Made by a program: the position numbers and the translations under genes | The notes under the pieces: generated by a model | What the model was told of the DNA's origin: nothing | The model's database searches: none | Seen by the model: only the letters and a program-made list of their open reading frames with translations | Shown here: positions 43 to 21,148 of the stretch, in pieces | Position numbering within the stretch: position 1 is the first letter of the stretch | Layout of the letters: every line of letters starts with the position of its first letter | DNA from: a virus | DNA length: 21,722 nt | Strand: one strand, 5' to 3' | IMG/VR virus record: IMGVR_UViG_3300049153_000011 | Coordinates: 1-21,722 of that record

Positions 43-473
43 GACGGGCCGACCACCCTCATCGACGCGATCGGGATCAGAATCGTCGGTTCTACCTCGG
101 CGGGGTGTCGGTGCTCGGCTCGGACCTGATGACCGACGAGCTCGACGTTGGTGGCGTCGACCTCGGCGGCCGGCACCCACCGGATGCTGTCGGTGAAGCG
201 CACGACGTACCGCGCTGGGACCCCGAGGCCGAGCTCGGCTTGGCGCATGGCGAGCCACCGACGAACGGTGAGGTAGGTGGTGGCGTACCGATCGTGCTCG
301 TGCGATCGCTGCTTGATCTCGACGAGGCCAACCATCCGTCCGGCCCGCTCGGCCCAGTAGTCGAGCGGGGAGTAGCGGGCGAAGCGGTGCAGCGTGCAGC
401 GCCAGGCCTGCTCGAGGACCTCGGCGACCTCGGCCTCGTTGCGGGTGTCGGTGTCGTTGGCGTAGGTGGTCAT
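39..473 (-). CDS. PD-(D/E)XK nuclease-like protein
   Basis: This 144-aa protein of the early region carries an apparent PD-(D/E)XK nuclease core: Asp38 in the stretch SPLDYW, then a hydrophobic strand ending in Glu52-x-Lys54 (VGLVEIKQR). Downstream is an Arg-rich helix (TVRRWLAMRQAE) and a strand (PARYVVRFTD), as in small endonucleases, resolvases and VRR-like nucleases. Such enzymes in phage early operons usually process recombination or replication intermediates. That fits the RecT-like and replication-type genes just upstream. Its ATG overlaps the preceding small frame as ATGA, and its TGA overlaps the next gene as GTGA. The fold is inferred from the D...ExK spacing. The exact nuclease family and substrate are unknown. 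Confidence 0.6.
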   Translation of the reverse strand: MTTYANDTDTRNEAEVAEVLEQAWRCTLHRFARYSPLDYWAERAGRMVGLVEIKQRSHEHDRYATTYLTVRRWLAMRQAELGLGVPARYVVRFTDSIRWVPAAEVDATNVELVGHQVRAEHRHPAEVEPTILIPIASMRVVGPS

Positions 474-637
474 GCTCGGTTGTCCACACCCTCTTGTGGA
501 TGAAGCGCTGAAGGGCCGGGGATGCAGGTTGTGGATGTCGGTTGCTGGATGCTGGATGTGGATGCTGGATGTGGATGTGGTAGTTCGGCCTCTCTTGCCA
601 AGGCTCTTGGCCAGGCTCTTGCGAAGGCTCTTGCCAT
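470..637 (-). CDS. Possible 55-aa protein over a repeat-rich segment
   Basis: An ATG at 637-635 shares its first base with the stop of the upstream replication-type gene (TGATG). The frame ends at a TGA overlapping the nuclease ATG (ATGA). The predicted 55-aa product begins with a repeated Ala-Arg segment (MARAFARAWPRALARE) followed by a His/Pro/Ser/Thr-rich tail. The double coupling argues for translation. Against it, the composition is odd, there is no recognisable domain, and the DNA is tandemly repeated with DnaA-box-like words, so the frame may only be a passenger of a replication origin. I cannot decide between the two from sequence alone. Confidence 0.3.
   Translation of the reverse strand: MARAFARAWPRALAREAELPHPHPASTSSIQQPTSTTCIPGPSALHPQEGVDNRA
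474..637. other. Candidate replication origin (DnaA-like boxes plus iterons)
   Basis: This segment sits between a replication-type helix-turn-helix gene and a nuclease gene. It has a perfect TTGTCCACA at 480-488, the form preferred by actinobacterial DnaA. Four inverted-orientation words of the type TGTGGATGN lie at 495-503, 530-538, 557-565 and 570-578. Next to them, AGGCTCTTG recurs at 601, 613 and 625 with a 12-bp period, and a degenerate copy begins near 589. Boxes plus iterons beside replication genes are the classic layout of a phage or plasmid origin. Alternatively this is simple repeat drift inside a small coding frame. Confidence 0.45.
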
Positions 638-3061: not shown

Positions 3062-3099
3062 GAGGTTGCCTCGGGGCGCGCTGAAGCAGGGTGTCGCAT
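3058..3099 (-). CDS. 13-codon upstream frame with strong SD
   Basis: ATG at 3099-3097 is preceded by CCAGGAGGACCCCGCC, the best Shine-Dalgarno in the neighbourhood. It reads only MRHPASARPEATS before a TGA that overlaps the GTG of the transglycosylase-like gene. It looks like a leader frame delivering ribosomes to a weak GTG start. It may instead be a chance ATG under an SD that serves the GTG poorly. Confidence 0.3.
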   Translation of the reverse strand: MRHPASARPEATS

Positions 3100-3117
3100 G
3101 GCGGGGTCCTCCTGGTG

Positions 3118-3369
3118 TCAGGCCGAGGCGCGGGCGCGCGATCGGTGCTCGAGGTGCTCGGGGACGTCGATGGCCTTGATGTCGTCGTTGGTGAATCCGT
3201 ACCGCGCCTTGATGTCGGCGAGCGGAACGTTGCCCTCGAAGGCACCGGGGAAGCGCCGCTCGCCGATCGGCAGCTTGCGGTCGGCGGTCAGCCAACTCTC
3301 GATCGTGGACCTCGAGCGGCGCTCGAGCCAGGCGATGACGTCATATCCGTAGAACGGCTGCAGTTGCAT
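3118..3369 (-). CDS. Small HTH/excisionase-like protein
   Basis: The frame is open further upstream, but the ATG at 3369 has an excellent GGGAGGAG site, giving an 83-aa protein. Residues 8-45 (GYDVIAWLERRSRSTIESWLT followed by KLPIGERRFPGAFEGNVPLADI) suggest a DNA-binding helix pair of the kind found in small excisionases and phage regulators. Residues 46-65 would be a second short helical element. It is the first gene after the integrase terminators and stands beside GGTGTATC repeats, so a recombination directionality factor or Cro-like regulator is plausible. The fold is not certain. No catalytic motif is seen. Confidence 0.5.
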   Translation of the reverse strand: MQLQPFYGYDVIAWLERRSRSTIESWLTADRKLPIGERRFPGAFEGNVPLADIKARYGFTNDDIKAIDVPEHLEHRSRARASA

Positions 3370-5749: not shown

Positions 5750-5778
5750 ACGTTACCGGAAGGGTAACCTTTAGTCGA
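5750..5778 (-). promoter_or_regulatory. Candidate leftward promoter of the integrase operon
   Basis: On the minus strand, TCGACT (5778-5773, four matches to TTGACA) and TAACGT (5755-5750, TAnnnT type) are 17 bp apart. The -35 lies in the spacer of the 11-bp inverted repeat and the -10 overlaps a GTTACC box. A protein bound to the boxes would therefore block or shape this promoter. The start would lie near 5743, about 200 nt upstream of the first gene. Confidence 0.4.
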
Positions 5779-5790
5779 GAGGTTACCCTT
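5760..5790. repeat. 11-bp perfect inverted repeat, operator or arm site
   Basis: AAGGGTAACCT (5760-5770) and AGGTTACCCTT (5780-5790) are exact reverse complements separated by 9 bp. A further half-box GTTACC is at 5752-5757. The layout suits a dimeric repressor or an integrase arm-type pair. Confidence 0.6.
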
Positions 5791-5992
5791 CTGCCGTTGT
5801 GAGGTCTCATGGCTCGGAAGCGGCGAGACCCTTGCAATGGCGGGGCTTTCGGTGCTTGGCCTCGGGGAGCTCGTGGGCTCGACCCTAAGACCCCCAGGCC
5901 CTGGTCGAGCCTGCCTCCTGCCGCTGATGGCCGCCGGCGCTTGCCATCTCCCACCGTAGGTTGGCGGGTCCTGCTGGGCCCTGCTTACCGTT

Positions 5993-6014
5993 GGGGTAAC
6001 CCGAGGGGTAACCC
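5993..6014. repeat. Two direct GGGGTAACCC boxes
   Basis: Identical 10-bp words at 5993-6002 and 6005-6014 have a 12-bp period. A degenerate TTACCG lies at 5985. They share the GGTAACC core with the cluster about 200 bp to the left and end 17 bp before the tRNA gene. Confidence 0.6.
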
Positions 6015-6031
6015 GCTACGCTCGCCGGCGA

Positions 6032-6105
6032 CGGGCCGTGGCTCAGCTTGGTAGAGCGCCGCACTGGGGGTGCGGAGGTCGTCGGTTCGAATCCGGCCGG
6101 CCCGA
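6032..6105 (+). tRNA. tRNA-Pro (anticodon GGG)
   Basis: The cloverleaf is complete. The acceptor stem is CGGGCCG/CGGCCCG (7 perfect pairs). The D-arm is GCTC-AGCTTGGTA-GAGC, the anticodon stem CCGCA/TGCGG with loop CTGGGGG, the variable loop AGGTC, and the T-arm GTCGG-TTCGAAT-CCGGC with one G-T pair. The discriminator is A and no CCA is encoded. Anticodon GGG reads CCC and CCU. It is the only plus-strand gene and converges on the lysis genes. It may be a phage-carried tRNA, or mark the attachment site, because tRNA genes are frequent targets for integrases of this type. A TACGCT box at 6017-6022 could be its -10. Confidence 0.93.
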
Positions 6106-6119
6106 CGAGCTCGAGCGCC

Positions 6120-10448: not shown

Positions 10449-12481
10449 GCCACGCCGGCCAGGAGCTCGAGGCGTCGGAAGCCGTAGGCGATGTCGGCGG
10501 CGTCGGCGGTGCGCGGGTAGATGTTGAGCTCGTAGTGGCCTCCTGCCTCGTCGGCGATGATCGAGCGGAGCATGGCCTCGGGTGCGACGATCTCGGTGCC
10601 GGCCTCGCCTCCTACGAAGAGGGTCGGGCGGGTGAGGACGCCGCCGGTGGCGAGGGTCGGGATGTGGGGGAAGCCGAAGGTCTGGCCGCCGAAGCTCCCG
10701 CCGCCGATGGTGCCGATGCCGGGGATGTCGACGCTCGGGATCGTGACGGTCGGGACCGTAAACTTGAGGCCGTTCCACGCGTTGATGACGGCGTTGATCG
10801 GCCTCTTGATGGCGTCGGCGATGCTCGAAATGGCGCCGCTGATCGTACCGACGACGCTCGAAATGGCGCCGGCGAGGGCTTGGAAGCGGCCGGCGATCCA
10901 ATCGTAAACGCTGGTCGCCGCCGCCTTGGCGGTGTTGAACCATCCGACCATCGTGCCGATCCACGACCCGACCGCGCTTACCGCCGAGGCGACGCCGGAG
11001 GCGATGGCCTGCCACTTGTCGACCACCCATTGCCACACCGCGGTGGCGGCGCTCTTGATGGTGTCCCAATGATCGATCACCATCTTGACCGCTATCCCGA
11101 CGGGGCCGGCGATGATGGCGAGGAGCAGCGGCCAGTTGTCCTTGATCCAATTGAAGACGGCGATGGCGGCGTCCTTGATCCAATTGAAGGCGGCGACGAG
11201 CGCGGCTCCTGTCGCGTCGACCGCGGTTCGGAACCAGTCGACCTTCTGGTAGGCGAGGATGATGCCGGCGACCAGCGCGACGATCGCGGCGACGACGAGG
11301 CCGATCGGGTTGGCGGTCATGGCGGCGTTGAAGAGCCACTGCGCGGCGGTGGCGATGTTCTGCGCCACCGTCAGGGCGGTGACCTGGACCCAAAGGATGC
11401 CGAGGCTGATGGCGTTGGCGATGGCGCTTGCGTTCAAGATGGCGAGCGCCGCGACCATGAGGCCGAGCACGATGGCGTTGTCCGAAACGAAACTGCCGAC
11501 CGCGCTCAGCGCCTCCCCGAGGACGCCGACATTCTCGACGGCGTAGCTGAAGGCCTCAGCCAGCTTGGTCATGATCGGCAGCAGGGCTTGGCCGATCGTG
11601 GCCTGCAGCTCTTTCATGTTGGCCTCGGCCTTTTTCTGCTTGATGGCGTAGTTGTCGCTCGAGCGGGCGACGTCACCCTGCGCGGTCTTGGTCTGCTCGA
11701 GGACGAGCGCGTAGCTGGCTTGCGCCTTCTGCGCGGCGGTGAGGCTCTTGGGGGTCTCGCCACCCATCACGCCGTTCAGCTTCATGTTGGCCTGCTCGGC
11801 GTCGCGCATGGCGTCCTTGTATTCGACCGAGCCCTCTCCATGCTTCTTGAGCGCCTCGGCGGCCTTGCGCGACGCCTTCTCGGAATTCTCTTGCGCGGCG
11901 CTCAGCTTCTCGACGTTGACGCTGGTCTCGACCAGGCCCATCTTCATGGCCTGCGCCATCAGGGTGGCCTCGTTCATGTTGACGCCGAAGGCCTTGAGCG
12001 GTTCGGTCTCGCCGGTGAGGCCGCTCTTGAGCGCGGTGAGGGCTTGGTCGACCGGCACGTTGTTGAAGGACGCCATGTCGGCGGCCAGCTGCACCAGGTT
12101 CTTGCTCATGTCGGTGGCGACGTCTTGTGGCAGGCCGAGGCTCAGCGCGAGGTTGCCGAAGGTGCCGGCGGCCTCGAGCGCCTCCTGCTGGCTCATGGCC
12201 ATGGCGTCGACGGCGGTCGTCGACCACTTCATGATCTCGCCGGCCGAGCTCCCGAACACGACGTTGGTCTTGGCGATGCTCTCGTTCAGGTTCGAGGCGG
12301 CGTCGACCGCTTGCTTGCCGAAGTCGACGACCTTGTCGATGGCGAAGGCGCCGCCGAGCGCGACCGCTGCGCCCTTGGCGACGTCGGTGATCTTGGCCAT
12401 GCCACCGGAGGCCTGATCGACGCCGCTCGTCATCTTGGAGGTGTCGGCGACGAACTTGGCGGTGATCGTGGGGCCGGCCAT
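10445..12481 (-). CDS. Tail tape measure protein
   Basis: This 678-aa protein sets tail length and is ejected into the host envelope. It follows the G/GT chaperone frames by a TGATG overlap. The N-terminal part (1-60) is Gly/Ala/Lys-rich. Residues about 60-325 are helical with KMGLVETSVNVEKL and KASRKAAEALKKHGEG segments. About 327-415 is strongly hydrophobic (VLGLMVAALAILNASAI, ANPIGLVVAAIVALVAGI), typical of membrane-active tape-measure regions. About 415-560 has repeated helices with Trp (FNWIKD, VWQWVVDKW). The C-terminus is Gly-rich. At about 1.5 angstrom per residue the tail would be near 100 nm. No lysozyme or peptidase motif was recognised inside. Confidence 0.92.
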   Translation of the reverse strand: MAGPTITAKFVADTSKMTSGVDQASGGMAKITDVAKGAAVALGGAFAIDKVVDFGKQAVDAASNLNESIAKTNVVFGSSAGEIMKWSTTAVDAMAMSQQEALEAAGTFGNLALSLGLPQDVATDMSKNLVQLAADMASFNNVPVDQALTALKSGLTGETEPLKAFGVNMNEATLMAQAMKMGLVETSVNVEKLSAAQENSEKASRKAAEALKKHGEGSVEYKDAMRDAEQANMKLNGVMGGETPKSLTAAQKAQASYALVLEQTKTAQGDVARSSDNYAIKQKKAEANMKELQATIGQALLPIMTKLAEAFSYAVENVGVLGEALSAVGSFVSDNAIVLGLMVAALAILNASAIANAISLGILWVQVTALTVAQNIATAAQWLFNAAMTANPIGLVVAAIVALVAGIILAYQKVDWFRTAVDATGAALVAAFNWIKDAAIAVFNWIKDNWPLLLAIIAGPVGIAVKMVIDHWDTIKSAATAVWQWVVDKWQAIASGVASAVSAVGSWIGTMVGWFNTAKAAATSVYDWIAGRFQALAGAISSVVGTISGAISSIADAIKRPINAVINAWNGLKFTVPTVTIPSVDIPGIGTIGGGSFGGQTFGFPHIPTLATGGVLTRPTLFVGGEAGTEIVAPEAMLRSIIADEAGGHYELNIYPRTADAADIAYGFRRLELLAGVA

Positions 12482-17984: not shown

Positions 17985-19250
17985 TCACCCGAAGTCGACA
18001 GGCTTACCGTCGAGCTCGGGAAGGCGGCCGGTGAGCTCCTGCCACCGACGGCAGGCGACGTCGACGTAGGTCGGGTCCTTCTCGATCGCGGCGCAGCGGC
18101 GGCCGGTGACCTCGGCCGCGGCGATGGCGGTGCCGGCCATGGTGGTGTTGGGCTCGAGCGCGACGTTGTCCTCGTCGGTCGGGTCGCCGGCGAGCTCGGC
18201 GGCGACGATGGCGGTGCCGCTCCCGCAGAAGGGCTCGTAGGCCCACTCGCCGGCGCGGAGATGCCAGGTGTAGGGGTCGGTGTAGAGGGCGACGGGCTTG
18301 ATGGTCGGGTGCTCGGGGTTGGCGCCGGCGCGGTCGAGCTCCCACACGTTGGTGCTCGAGCTCGGCGGTCTGCGCTCGGCTCTTGGCCGGCGGCCGGCGC
18401 GCCATCCGTAGGCGCAGGGCTCGATGCCCCACATGAAATCGGAGCGGCCGAGGACGGCGCGCTGCTTGCGCCAGAAGCAGGTCTGATGCCAGAGGAGGTC
18501 GTTGGCCTTCCAGGCCTGCTCGACGAGGTCGGCGCGCCTCGACGCATGCCACTGGTAGATCGGCGCTTGCGGGTGGAGGTGCTCGAGGGCGAGCTCGAGG
18601 TAGCGGGTGAAGAAGGCGACGCCGGCGGCCTCGTCGCCGACCGTGTCCCAGGCGGCGTAGTCGACAAGGTACGGCGGGTCGGTCACCATCAGCCTCGGGG
18701 TGATGCCGTCGAGCACTCGAGCGACGTCGCCGGCCTCGAGGCTGTCGCCGCAGAGGAGGCGGTGGTCTCCCAAGATCCAGAGGTCACCGAGAGTGGTGAT
18801 CGGGTTGGCCGGCGGCTCGGGGATGGCGTCGGGGTCTCCTGGTGTCGACCAGCGCTCGAGCAGCTTGGCGAGGTCGGCGTCGTCGAAGCCCGCGCCGTCG
18901 AGGTCGCCGGCGGTCTGGAGGTCCTCGAGCACTCGGGCGAGCTCTCGGAAGTCGTAGGTGGCCTGGTCGGCGCTCCAGTTGTCCATCAGCATGATGCGGC
19001 GGGCTTGGTCGTCGTCGACGTCGAGGAAGAGCGCCGGCAGCGCCTTCTCGCCGCGCCGGCGCGCGACCCTCTTGCGGTGGTTGCCGGCGATGATGAAGCC
19101 GGAGCTCTCCTGGACCAGCACCGCGCCGTAGAAGCCGTGCGCCGCCATCGAGGCGTCGATGGCGTCCTCGTCACCGCGCCTCGGGTTGTCGGGGTGCTCG
19201 AGCAGGGTCTCGATCGGTGCGGCGGCGACGTACCGCTGGGCGATGCTCAT
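17985..19250 (-). CDS. ParB-domain/DNA methyltransferase fusion
   Basis: This 421-aa protein has a ParB/Srx-like domain (about 1-110, with IAGNHRKRVARRRGEK) fused to a beta-class DNA methyltransferase. DPPY at 191-194 is followed later by HPTIKP (314-319) and the AdoMet motif FCGSG (341-345), then CAAIEKDPTYVDVACRRW. It should methylate adenine N6 or cytosine N4 in a short target. The order DPPY before FxGxG is diagnostic of the beta class. An extra 28 residues follow FCGSG and look like a duplication of that region (see findings). No restriction enzyme is visible nearby. It begins 10 bp after the large terminase stop. A role in protecting phage DNA or marking packaging substrate is inference. 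Confidence 0.9.
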   Translation of the reverse strand: MSIAQRYVAAAPIETLLEHPDNPRRGDEDAIDASMAAHGFYGAVLVQESSGFIIAGNHRKRVARRRGEKALPALFLDVDDDQARRIMLMDNWSADQATYDFRELARVLEDLQTAGDLDGAGFDDADLAKLLERWSTPGDPDAIPEPPANPITTLGDLWILGDHRLLCGDSLEAGDVARVLDGITPRLMVTDPPYLVDYAAWDTVGDEAAGVAFFTRYLELALEHLHPQAPIYQWHASRRADLVEQAWKANDLLWHQTCFWRKQRAVLGRSDFMWGIEPCAYGWRAGRRPRAERRPPSSSTNVWELDRAGANPEHPTIKPVALYTDPYTWHLRAGEWAYEPFCGSGTAIVAAELAGDPTDEDNVALEPNTTMAGTAIAAAEVTGRRCAAIEKDPTYVDVACRRWQELTGRLPELDGKPVDFG

Positions 19251-20676: not shown

Positions 20677-21148
20677 GAGCGATGGCCTCCCATGGATCAT
20701 CGGCCGGCACCGAGCTCGTGGCGATGCCCTGGAGATCCTCGACCGAGGTGGTCAGGGTCTCGCGCTCGAGGCGGGCGCCGAGCTCGAGCAGGCGTGCGGC
20801 GGCGTAGGCAGGGATGTCCTTGGGCTCGAGCTCGTTGAGCGCGGCGAGCGCCTTCTGCATGACGCCTCGGCCGGCGCGCTGGTGCAGGTCGTGCATCGTG
20901 CGCAGCTGCTCGAGGCGCCGGCGGTCGTCGAGTTGGTGGACCTCGTCGTCCCAGGCGACGGCGCGCTCCCACCAGAAGTTGTTCTGCGCCCAGCGCTCGA
21001 TCGTGCGGCGCGAGACCTGGAGCGCCTCGGCGATGTCGCGCAGGTTGCGCAACGGGCCGGCCTCGCGGAAGCGGCGGAAGGCGTCGTAGGCGCGGGCTGG
21101 CTCTTTCGGCCGCCGCTCCCAGGCGAGGCGCTCGAGCTCGGCGGTCAT
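20648..21148 (-). CDS. Terminase small subunit-like protein
   Basis: The 166-aa product starts at the ATG that overlaps the upstream stop (ATGA). It has an HTH near 38-55 (LRDIAEALQVSRRTIERWAQ) followed by WWERAVAWDDEVHQLDDRRR, then a helical oligomerisation part (LEQLRTMHDLHQRAGRGVMQ) and a short C-terminal tail (DDPWEAIARELTGTEPG) that would contact the large subunit. Small terminases recognise the packaging site. Position just before the large subunit supports the call. Confidence 0.8.
   Translation of the reverse strand: MTAELERLAWERRPKEPARAYDAFRRFREAGPLRNLRDIAEALQVSRRTIERWAQNNFWWERAVAWDDEVHQLDDRRRLEQLRTMHDLHQRAGRGVMQKALAALNELEPKDIPAYAAARLLELGARLERETLTTSVEDLQGIATSSVPADDPWEAIARELTGTEPG

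Follow-up and report, generated by a model that had tools for sequence, protein, structure and literature searches.

Where does this phage begin to copy its DNA, and which of the repeats crowded behind its replication gene would mark the place? The window analysed here is the whole 21,722-nucleotide (21.7-kb) stretch of IMG/VR record IMGVR_UViG_3300049153_000011. The original prediction had proposed one origin cluster at 474–637, made of DnaA-like boxes and 12-bp iterons. The repeats are there, but they form two adjoining arrays of one structure (592–636 and 520–581), and the best DnaA-box pair lies outside both. Judged from sequence and setting, it is highly likely that 520–636 forms the core of a phage replication origin, in which the iterons would be bound by the initiator and the adjoining array opened for helicase loading.

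Two tandem arrays lie directly behind an initiator gene

The recognised genes of the window are on the minus strand. Read in that direction, a RecT-like annealing protein (2051–1080; phrog_561, E = 4.1e-30), the upstream neighbour in a replication/recombination module, is followed by the initiator (1083–637), the two arrays, a PDDEXK_14 phage endonuclease (473–39; PF24579, E = 5.4e-18; phrog_7141, E = 9.7e-17) and the end of the record, which bears out the predicted setting between a replication-type helix-turn-helix gene and a nuclease gene. The 148-aa protein of 637–1083 matches PHROG 3171, 'replication initiation protein', with E = 6e-33 over profile positions 3–125 of 331. The match stops at residue 124 and the stop codon lies at 637; the protein consists of the winged-helix N-terminal domain only, the C-terminal module being absent, and such short forms are known also in Arthrobacter phages. 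Its AlphaFold2 model (pLDDT 90.3) has the helix and strand order of a winged helix, and among its best matches to viral folds are proteins that carry the name replisome organizer; a fold search of the PDB gave no significant match.

The iteron array (592–636, minus strand) begins right after the final base of the initiator stop codon, outside the gene, and comprises about 3.8 units of 12 bp, which read TGGCAAGAGCCT / TCGCAAGAGCCT / GGCCAAGAGCCT / TGGCAAGAG on the coding strand. An iteron-type origin is recognised by at least three direct repeats near an initiator gene, and 592–636 holds 3.8 copies. The second array (520–581, minus strand) consists of nine CATCCA(G) units of 6–7 bp, in the order CATCCA-CATCCAG-CATCCA-CATCCAG-CATCCAG-CAACCGA-CATCCA-CAACCTG-CATCC, and is a putative opening or single-strand loading element. 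Tandem Repeats Finder (TRF) scored the first at 69 and the second, as a 13/7-bp array at 520–577, at 72, the top two scores among 49 rows for the window; the best self-match at lag 12 anywhere in the window begins at 592, and the best at lags 13 and 7 both begin at 520. On the coding strand 520–581 is C-rich and holds only 5 G in 62 nt (20 A, 29 C, 5 G, 8 T), and, apart from stretches that overlap it, no other 62 nt on either strand of the whole window are as poor in G. Its GC content (55% vs 68% locally) is lower than that of its surroundings, yet it is not AT-rich.

The words named in the original prediction were all found where it placed them and are rare by chance. The repeat recurring every 12 bp, AGGCTCTTG, occurs at 601, 613 and 625, within the TRF array 592–636, with one stray copy at 11742, against a chance expectation of 0.12 in the window. 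GC skew shows no sign change at the arrays in the window, nor in the complete phages Bran and Vibaki; the skew test does not discriminate, because these two phages have clear arrays.

The closest relatives by capsid reach up to 55% identity. The initiator family had no match in 18 records of these relatives, which suggests, from sequence comparison, that the replication module has been swapped relative to them, a suggestion rather than a proof because the 18 records are fragments. L156, a capsid relative without a match to the initiator family, carries dense arrays of 10–11-bp period (CGCGGACAGAA) at 3082–3165 and 3251–3308, which are possibly the origin of another replication module. Scans for relatives with single proteins returned one for the initiator, none for the nuclease and one for RecT. 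Genome contigs scanned with the window's initiator contained no relative, and one plasmid record carries a relative of it.

Several other features of the window were recorded. Repeated GGTAACC/GTTACC sites (ACGTTACCGGAAGGGTAACC, GAGGTTACCC, GGGGTAACCCGAGGGGTAACCC) at 5750–5800 and 5984–6015, beyond the integrase, are apparently non-coding and operator-like. A tRNA-Pro (GGG) at 6032–6106 (plus strand), opposite the phage genes, is either a phage tRNA or an attachment-site remnant, and a tRNA-Ser called by ARAGORN at 20873–20971 (plus strand), antisense within the terminase region, is probably a false positive. Between portal and terminase, 17985–19250 (minus strand) encodes a ParB-like nuclease domain fused to a DNA methyltransferase.

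The two-part layout recurs in distant phages

We collected 14 annotated phage regions and 80 metagenomic loci, which reduced to 75 non-redundant loci including the window, and took 816 control segments, each 400 bp long, from these loci. Iterons were called at periods of 10–13 bp and short repeats at 6–8 bp, each with a TRF score of at least 40; for both arrays together the cut-offs were at least 35 and at least 30. Read as conservation and not as independent events, because the loci share ancestry, the counts place iterons just after the initiator domain in 52 of 75 targets (69%) vs 9 of 816 controls (1.1%), short repeats in 35 targets (47%) vs 2 controls (0.2%), and both arrays in 46 targets vs 2 controls. 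In some 20–40% of relatives, one array or both scored too low in TRF to be called. The order is fixed almost throughout: of 41 pairs that could be scored, 40 have the short array on the 3' side of the iterons. The arrays lie within full-length rep genes or, as in the window, right behind the stop of short ones.

The iteron period is 12 bp in 48 loci, 13 in four and 11 in two; for the short array it is 6 bp in 35, 7 in 20 and 8 in three. Mean autocorrelation rises at lags 11–13 and 23–25 and falls at the codon-type lags 9, 15, 21 and 27. In 48 of 58 loci the coding strand of the short array has more C than G, the other 10 being G-rich, and the array is not AT-rich in the family either (mean GC 62% vs 66% locally). 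The units themselves differ. The iteron core of the window, AAGAGCCT, is unlike the ACCCTTC common in relatives, and the short unit is ACTCCTTA in Vibaki and Mufasa8, ACAACAG in EastWest and BarretLemon, CAACAG in Bran, CCCCTAA in BrutonGaster, and CCCCTG or CCCCTA in many metagenomic loci. No tandem repeat in the 44.5-kb genome of Bran ranks above the array, which holds all eight AACCC[AT]TC words; in Vibaki, too, the array ranks first among the tandem repeats. Metagenomic locus L004, with an initiator 46% identical over 94 residues, has 11-bp repeats (GATAGCCTTTC) right behind the domain and within a full-length gene. Full-length relatives carry C-terminal modules that match primosomal or replication-initiation families.

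Two further motifs were seen in this collection. C-run motifs capable of forming G-quadruplexes on the template strand occur between 430 and 730 after the rep start in 41% of targets vs 3.7% of controls. About a dozen relatives have a motif like TTACGTAAGTAAC (also TCACCTAAGTAAC) 3' of the short array, at positions from the start of the rep match of 812 in L005, 737 in L008, 753 in L010, 821 in L012, 669 in L013, 529 in L033, 642 in L034, 522 in L043 and 722 in L075; the motif is absent from the window and is possibly a further origin element.

The two-part layout is thus found at an equivalent place in dozens of distant phages, of which those identified mostly infect actinobacteria, and because of this recurrence the site is very probably where these phages start replication. 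Of the origin role originally proposed, the iterons beside their own initiator gene stand, with dozens of relatives showing the same placement and architecture, but a core of DnaA boxes is not supported.

DnaA-like words are not a conserved part of the site

The prediction had given weight to DnaA boxes, and a DnaA-dependent origin would have host DnaA recruited by TTGTCCACA and the TGTGGATG words, with the 12-bp repeats secondary, a reading that we now consider very unlikely. It draws on TTGTCCACA at 480–488, the only exact TTRTCCACA in the window (0.06 expected), and on its inverted partner TCATCCACA at 495–503 on the minus strand, with one mismatch. The two span 24 bp, form the best DnaA-box pair and are the sole sites at one mismatch or fewer in 21.7 kb; two such sites are nonetheless the number chance would supply (1.65 expected). 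There are exactly four copies of TGTGGATG, at 495, 530, 557 and 570 (0.5 expected; none of 100 shuffles reached four). The copy at 495 lies outside the second array, but the other three each differ from TTRTCCACA at two positions and form the complement of CATCCACA where it falls at the edges of CATCCA(G) units. An origin of the DnaA-box type is recognised by clustered, conserved boxes, and the equivalent region contains an exact box in 0 of 74 relatives and one with at most one mismatch in 1 of 74, which is below background density. A hairpin at 474–520 was no better than those of shuffled sequences. Because of the counts in relatives, the pair at 480–503 is at best a window-specific feature; its role is uncertain, and it is a possible but unconserved DnaA site, through which host DnaA would at most act as an accessory.

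Operator, partition site or protein-level repeat

The arrays might instead be an operator or a parS-like centromere, bound by the winged-helix protein for autoregulation or partition while replication starts elsewhere. The protein, as a winged helix, would be a fitting candidate for such binding, and direct-repeat parS sites are present in actinophages, RedRock having eight 8-bp repeats (PMC7157519). However, the arrays sit on the 3' side of the DNA-binding domain and not at its promoter, an ordered second array would not be expected of an operator, and the window proteins searched included no recognisable ParA. The annotation of the family is moreover replication initiation, relatives having C-terminal modules of primosomal type, and we regard this explanation as very unlikely.

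It could also be asked whether the repeats are low complexity at the protein level, belonging either to a disordered linker within the initiator or to a separate small protein. Of 54 scored loci, 45 have the arrays inside the rep frame, which speaks for this reading, but they persist outside any rep frame in the other nine, and where the first array was scored these out-of-frame iterons start no more than about 20 bp from the stop codon. Periods of 11, 13, 7 and 8 bp in some arrays break the codon register, and in eleven loci the iteron core is present in either direction, the peptides encoded by the two orientations being different. As for a small protein, the window has an open frame of 52–55 aa over the arrays (470–637, minus strand) which overlaps both neighbours (TGATG and ATGA), the only point in its favour. 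The 13-bp period of the second array breaks this frame, frames of at least 50 codons number 149 in this GC-rich window, and the translated frame had no PHROG or Pfam match and no tblastn match in 50,697 phage records; it is probably not a gene. The same searches yielded no relative that keeps the small protein without the repeats. Related phages had been expected to keep the boxes and iterons while this frame decays: the iterons do recur in relatives, the DnaA box does not, and the frame is without a homologue. Protein-level low complexity is a very unlikely reading. What the sequences show is the arrays themselves, where they sit relative to the initiator domain, the order in which they come, and that relatives conserve them as DNA features irrespective of coding.

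A putative mechanism of opening

If 520–636 is the origin core, the winged-helix initiator (637–1083) would bind the 12-bp iterons of 592–636 with one protein per repeat, at a spacing of about one helical turn, and the bound initiators would assemble into a compact complex. This complex could strain the adjoining array at 520–581 until it opens. The C-rich, G-poor strand would then be kept single-stranded by the initiator or by a separately encoded helicase loader, and the replicative helicase would be loaded there. With the C-terminal module absent in the window, such a loader would be a separate protein encoded past the end of the fragment; none was seen because the record ends 519 bases past the second array.

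A more tentative proposal concerns the family as a whole, and we hold it with less than even confidence. Its opening element may be this fast-evolving, strand-asymmetric array of 6–8-bp repeats rather than an AT-rich tract, offering the initiator or helicase loader of GC-rich genomes a single-strand loading site defined by sequence. The short units are often CCCCTR-like and hence G-quadruplex-capable on the opposite strand.

We found no description of a two-part origin of this kind in the open literature, most subscription papers being outside the scope of the search, so that an earlier description is possible. Initiators of the PHROG 3171 type occur in hundreds of actinobacteriophage records, 255 of them in one collection, and no origin is given for the phages that carry them in the record regions and papers examined. 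The position rule, by which a winged-helix domain is directly followed by 12-bp iterons and these by short C-rich repeats, gives a prediction of where the origin lies that can be tested directly. Actinobacterial genetics would gain minimal replicons from it, and the phages form a natural series in which to ask how DNA in GC-rich genomes is opened without an AT-rich element.

Comparison with known systems

Among actinophage replicons with an initiator gene, the RepA-type and RNA-type prophage origins of cluster A mycobacteriophages invite comparison. RepA of these phages is related to plasmid proteins of the pMSC262 family, and the origin has been proposed to lie in or beside repA; this is the nearest published work that we found, and, unlike in the window, no repeated motifs were found near repA in the region that it examined (PMC7157519).

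Lambda iterons are longer than 12 bp. In the lambda origin, the iterons of the O protein and an AT-rich opening tract lie in gene O, behind the N-terminal DNA-binding domain of O (PMC7466680), and the window shares with it direct-repeat iterons in or beside the initiator gene and a distinct tract on one side (PMC7466680). Here, however, the iterons are of 12 bp, the flanking tract consists of strand-asymmetric 6–8-bp repeats and is not AT-rich, and the arrays come after the stop codon of a short initiator gene rather than lying inside it.

The oriV of RK2, an iteron plasmid with TrfA iterons and repeated 13-mers, likewise places iterons before a second, differently repeated array, and its initiator contacts the opened repeats of the unwinding element strand-specifically (PMC10797057). 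It differs in that the second array here has short 6–8-bp units, usually C-rich and not AT-rich, in that DnaA boxes do not recur, and in that the initiator is of PHROG 3171. Also among the closest known counterparts are the PHROG 3171/8064 proteins, annotated 'RepA-like replication initiator', of Gordonia, Arthrobacter and Mycobacterium phages. Although the 148-aa protein of the window is without their C-terminal half, it shares with them a homologous N-terminal domain and the layout of arrays downstream.
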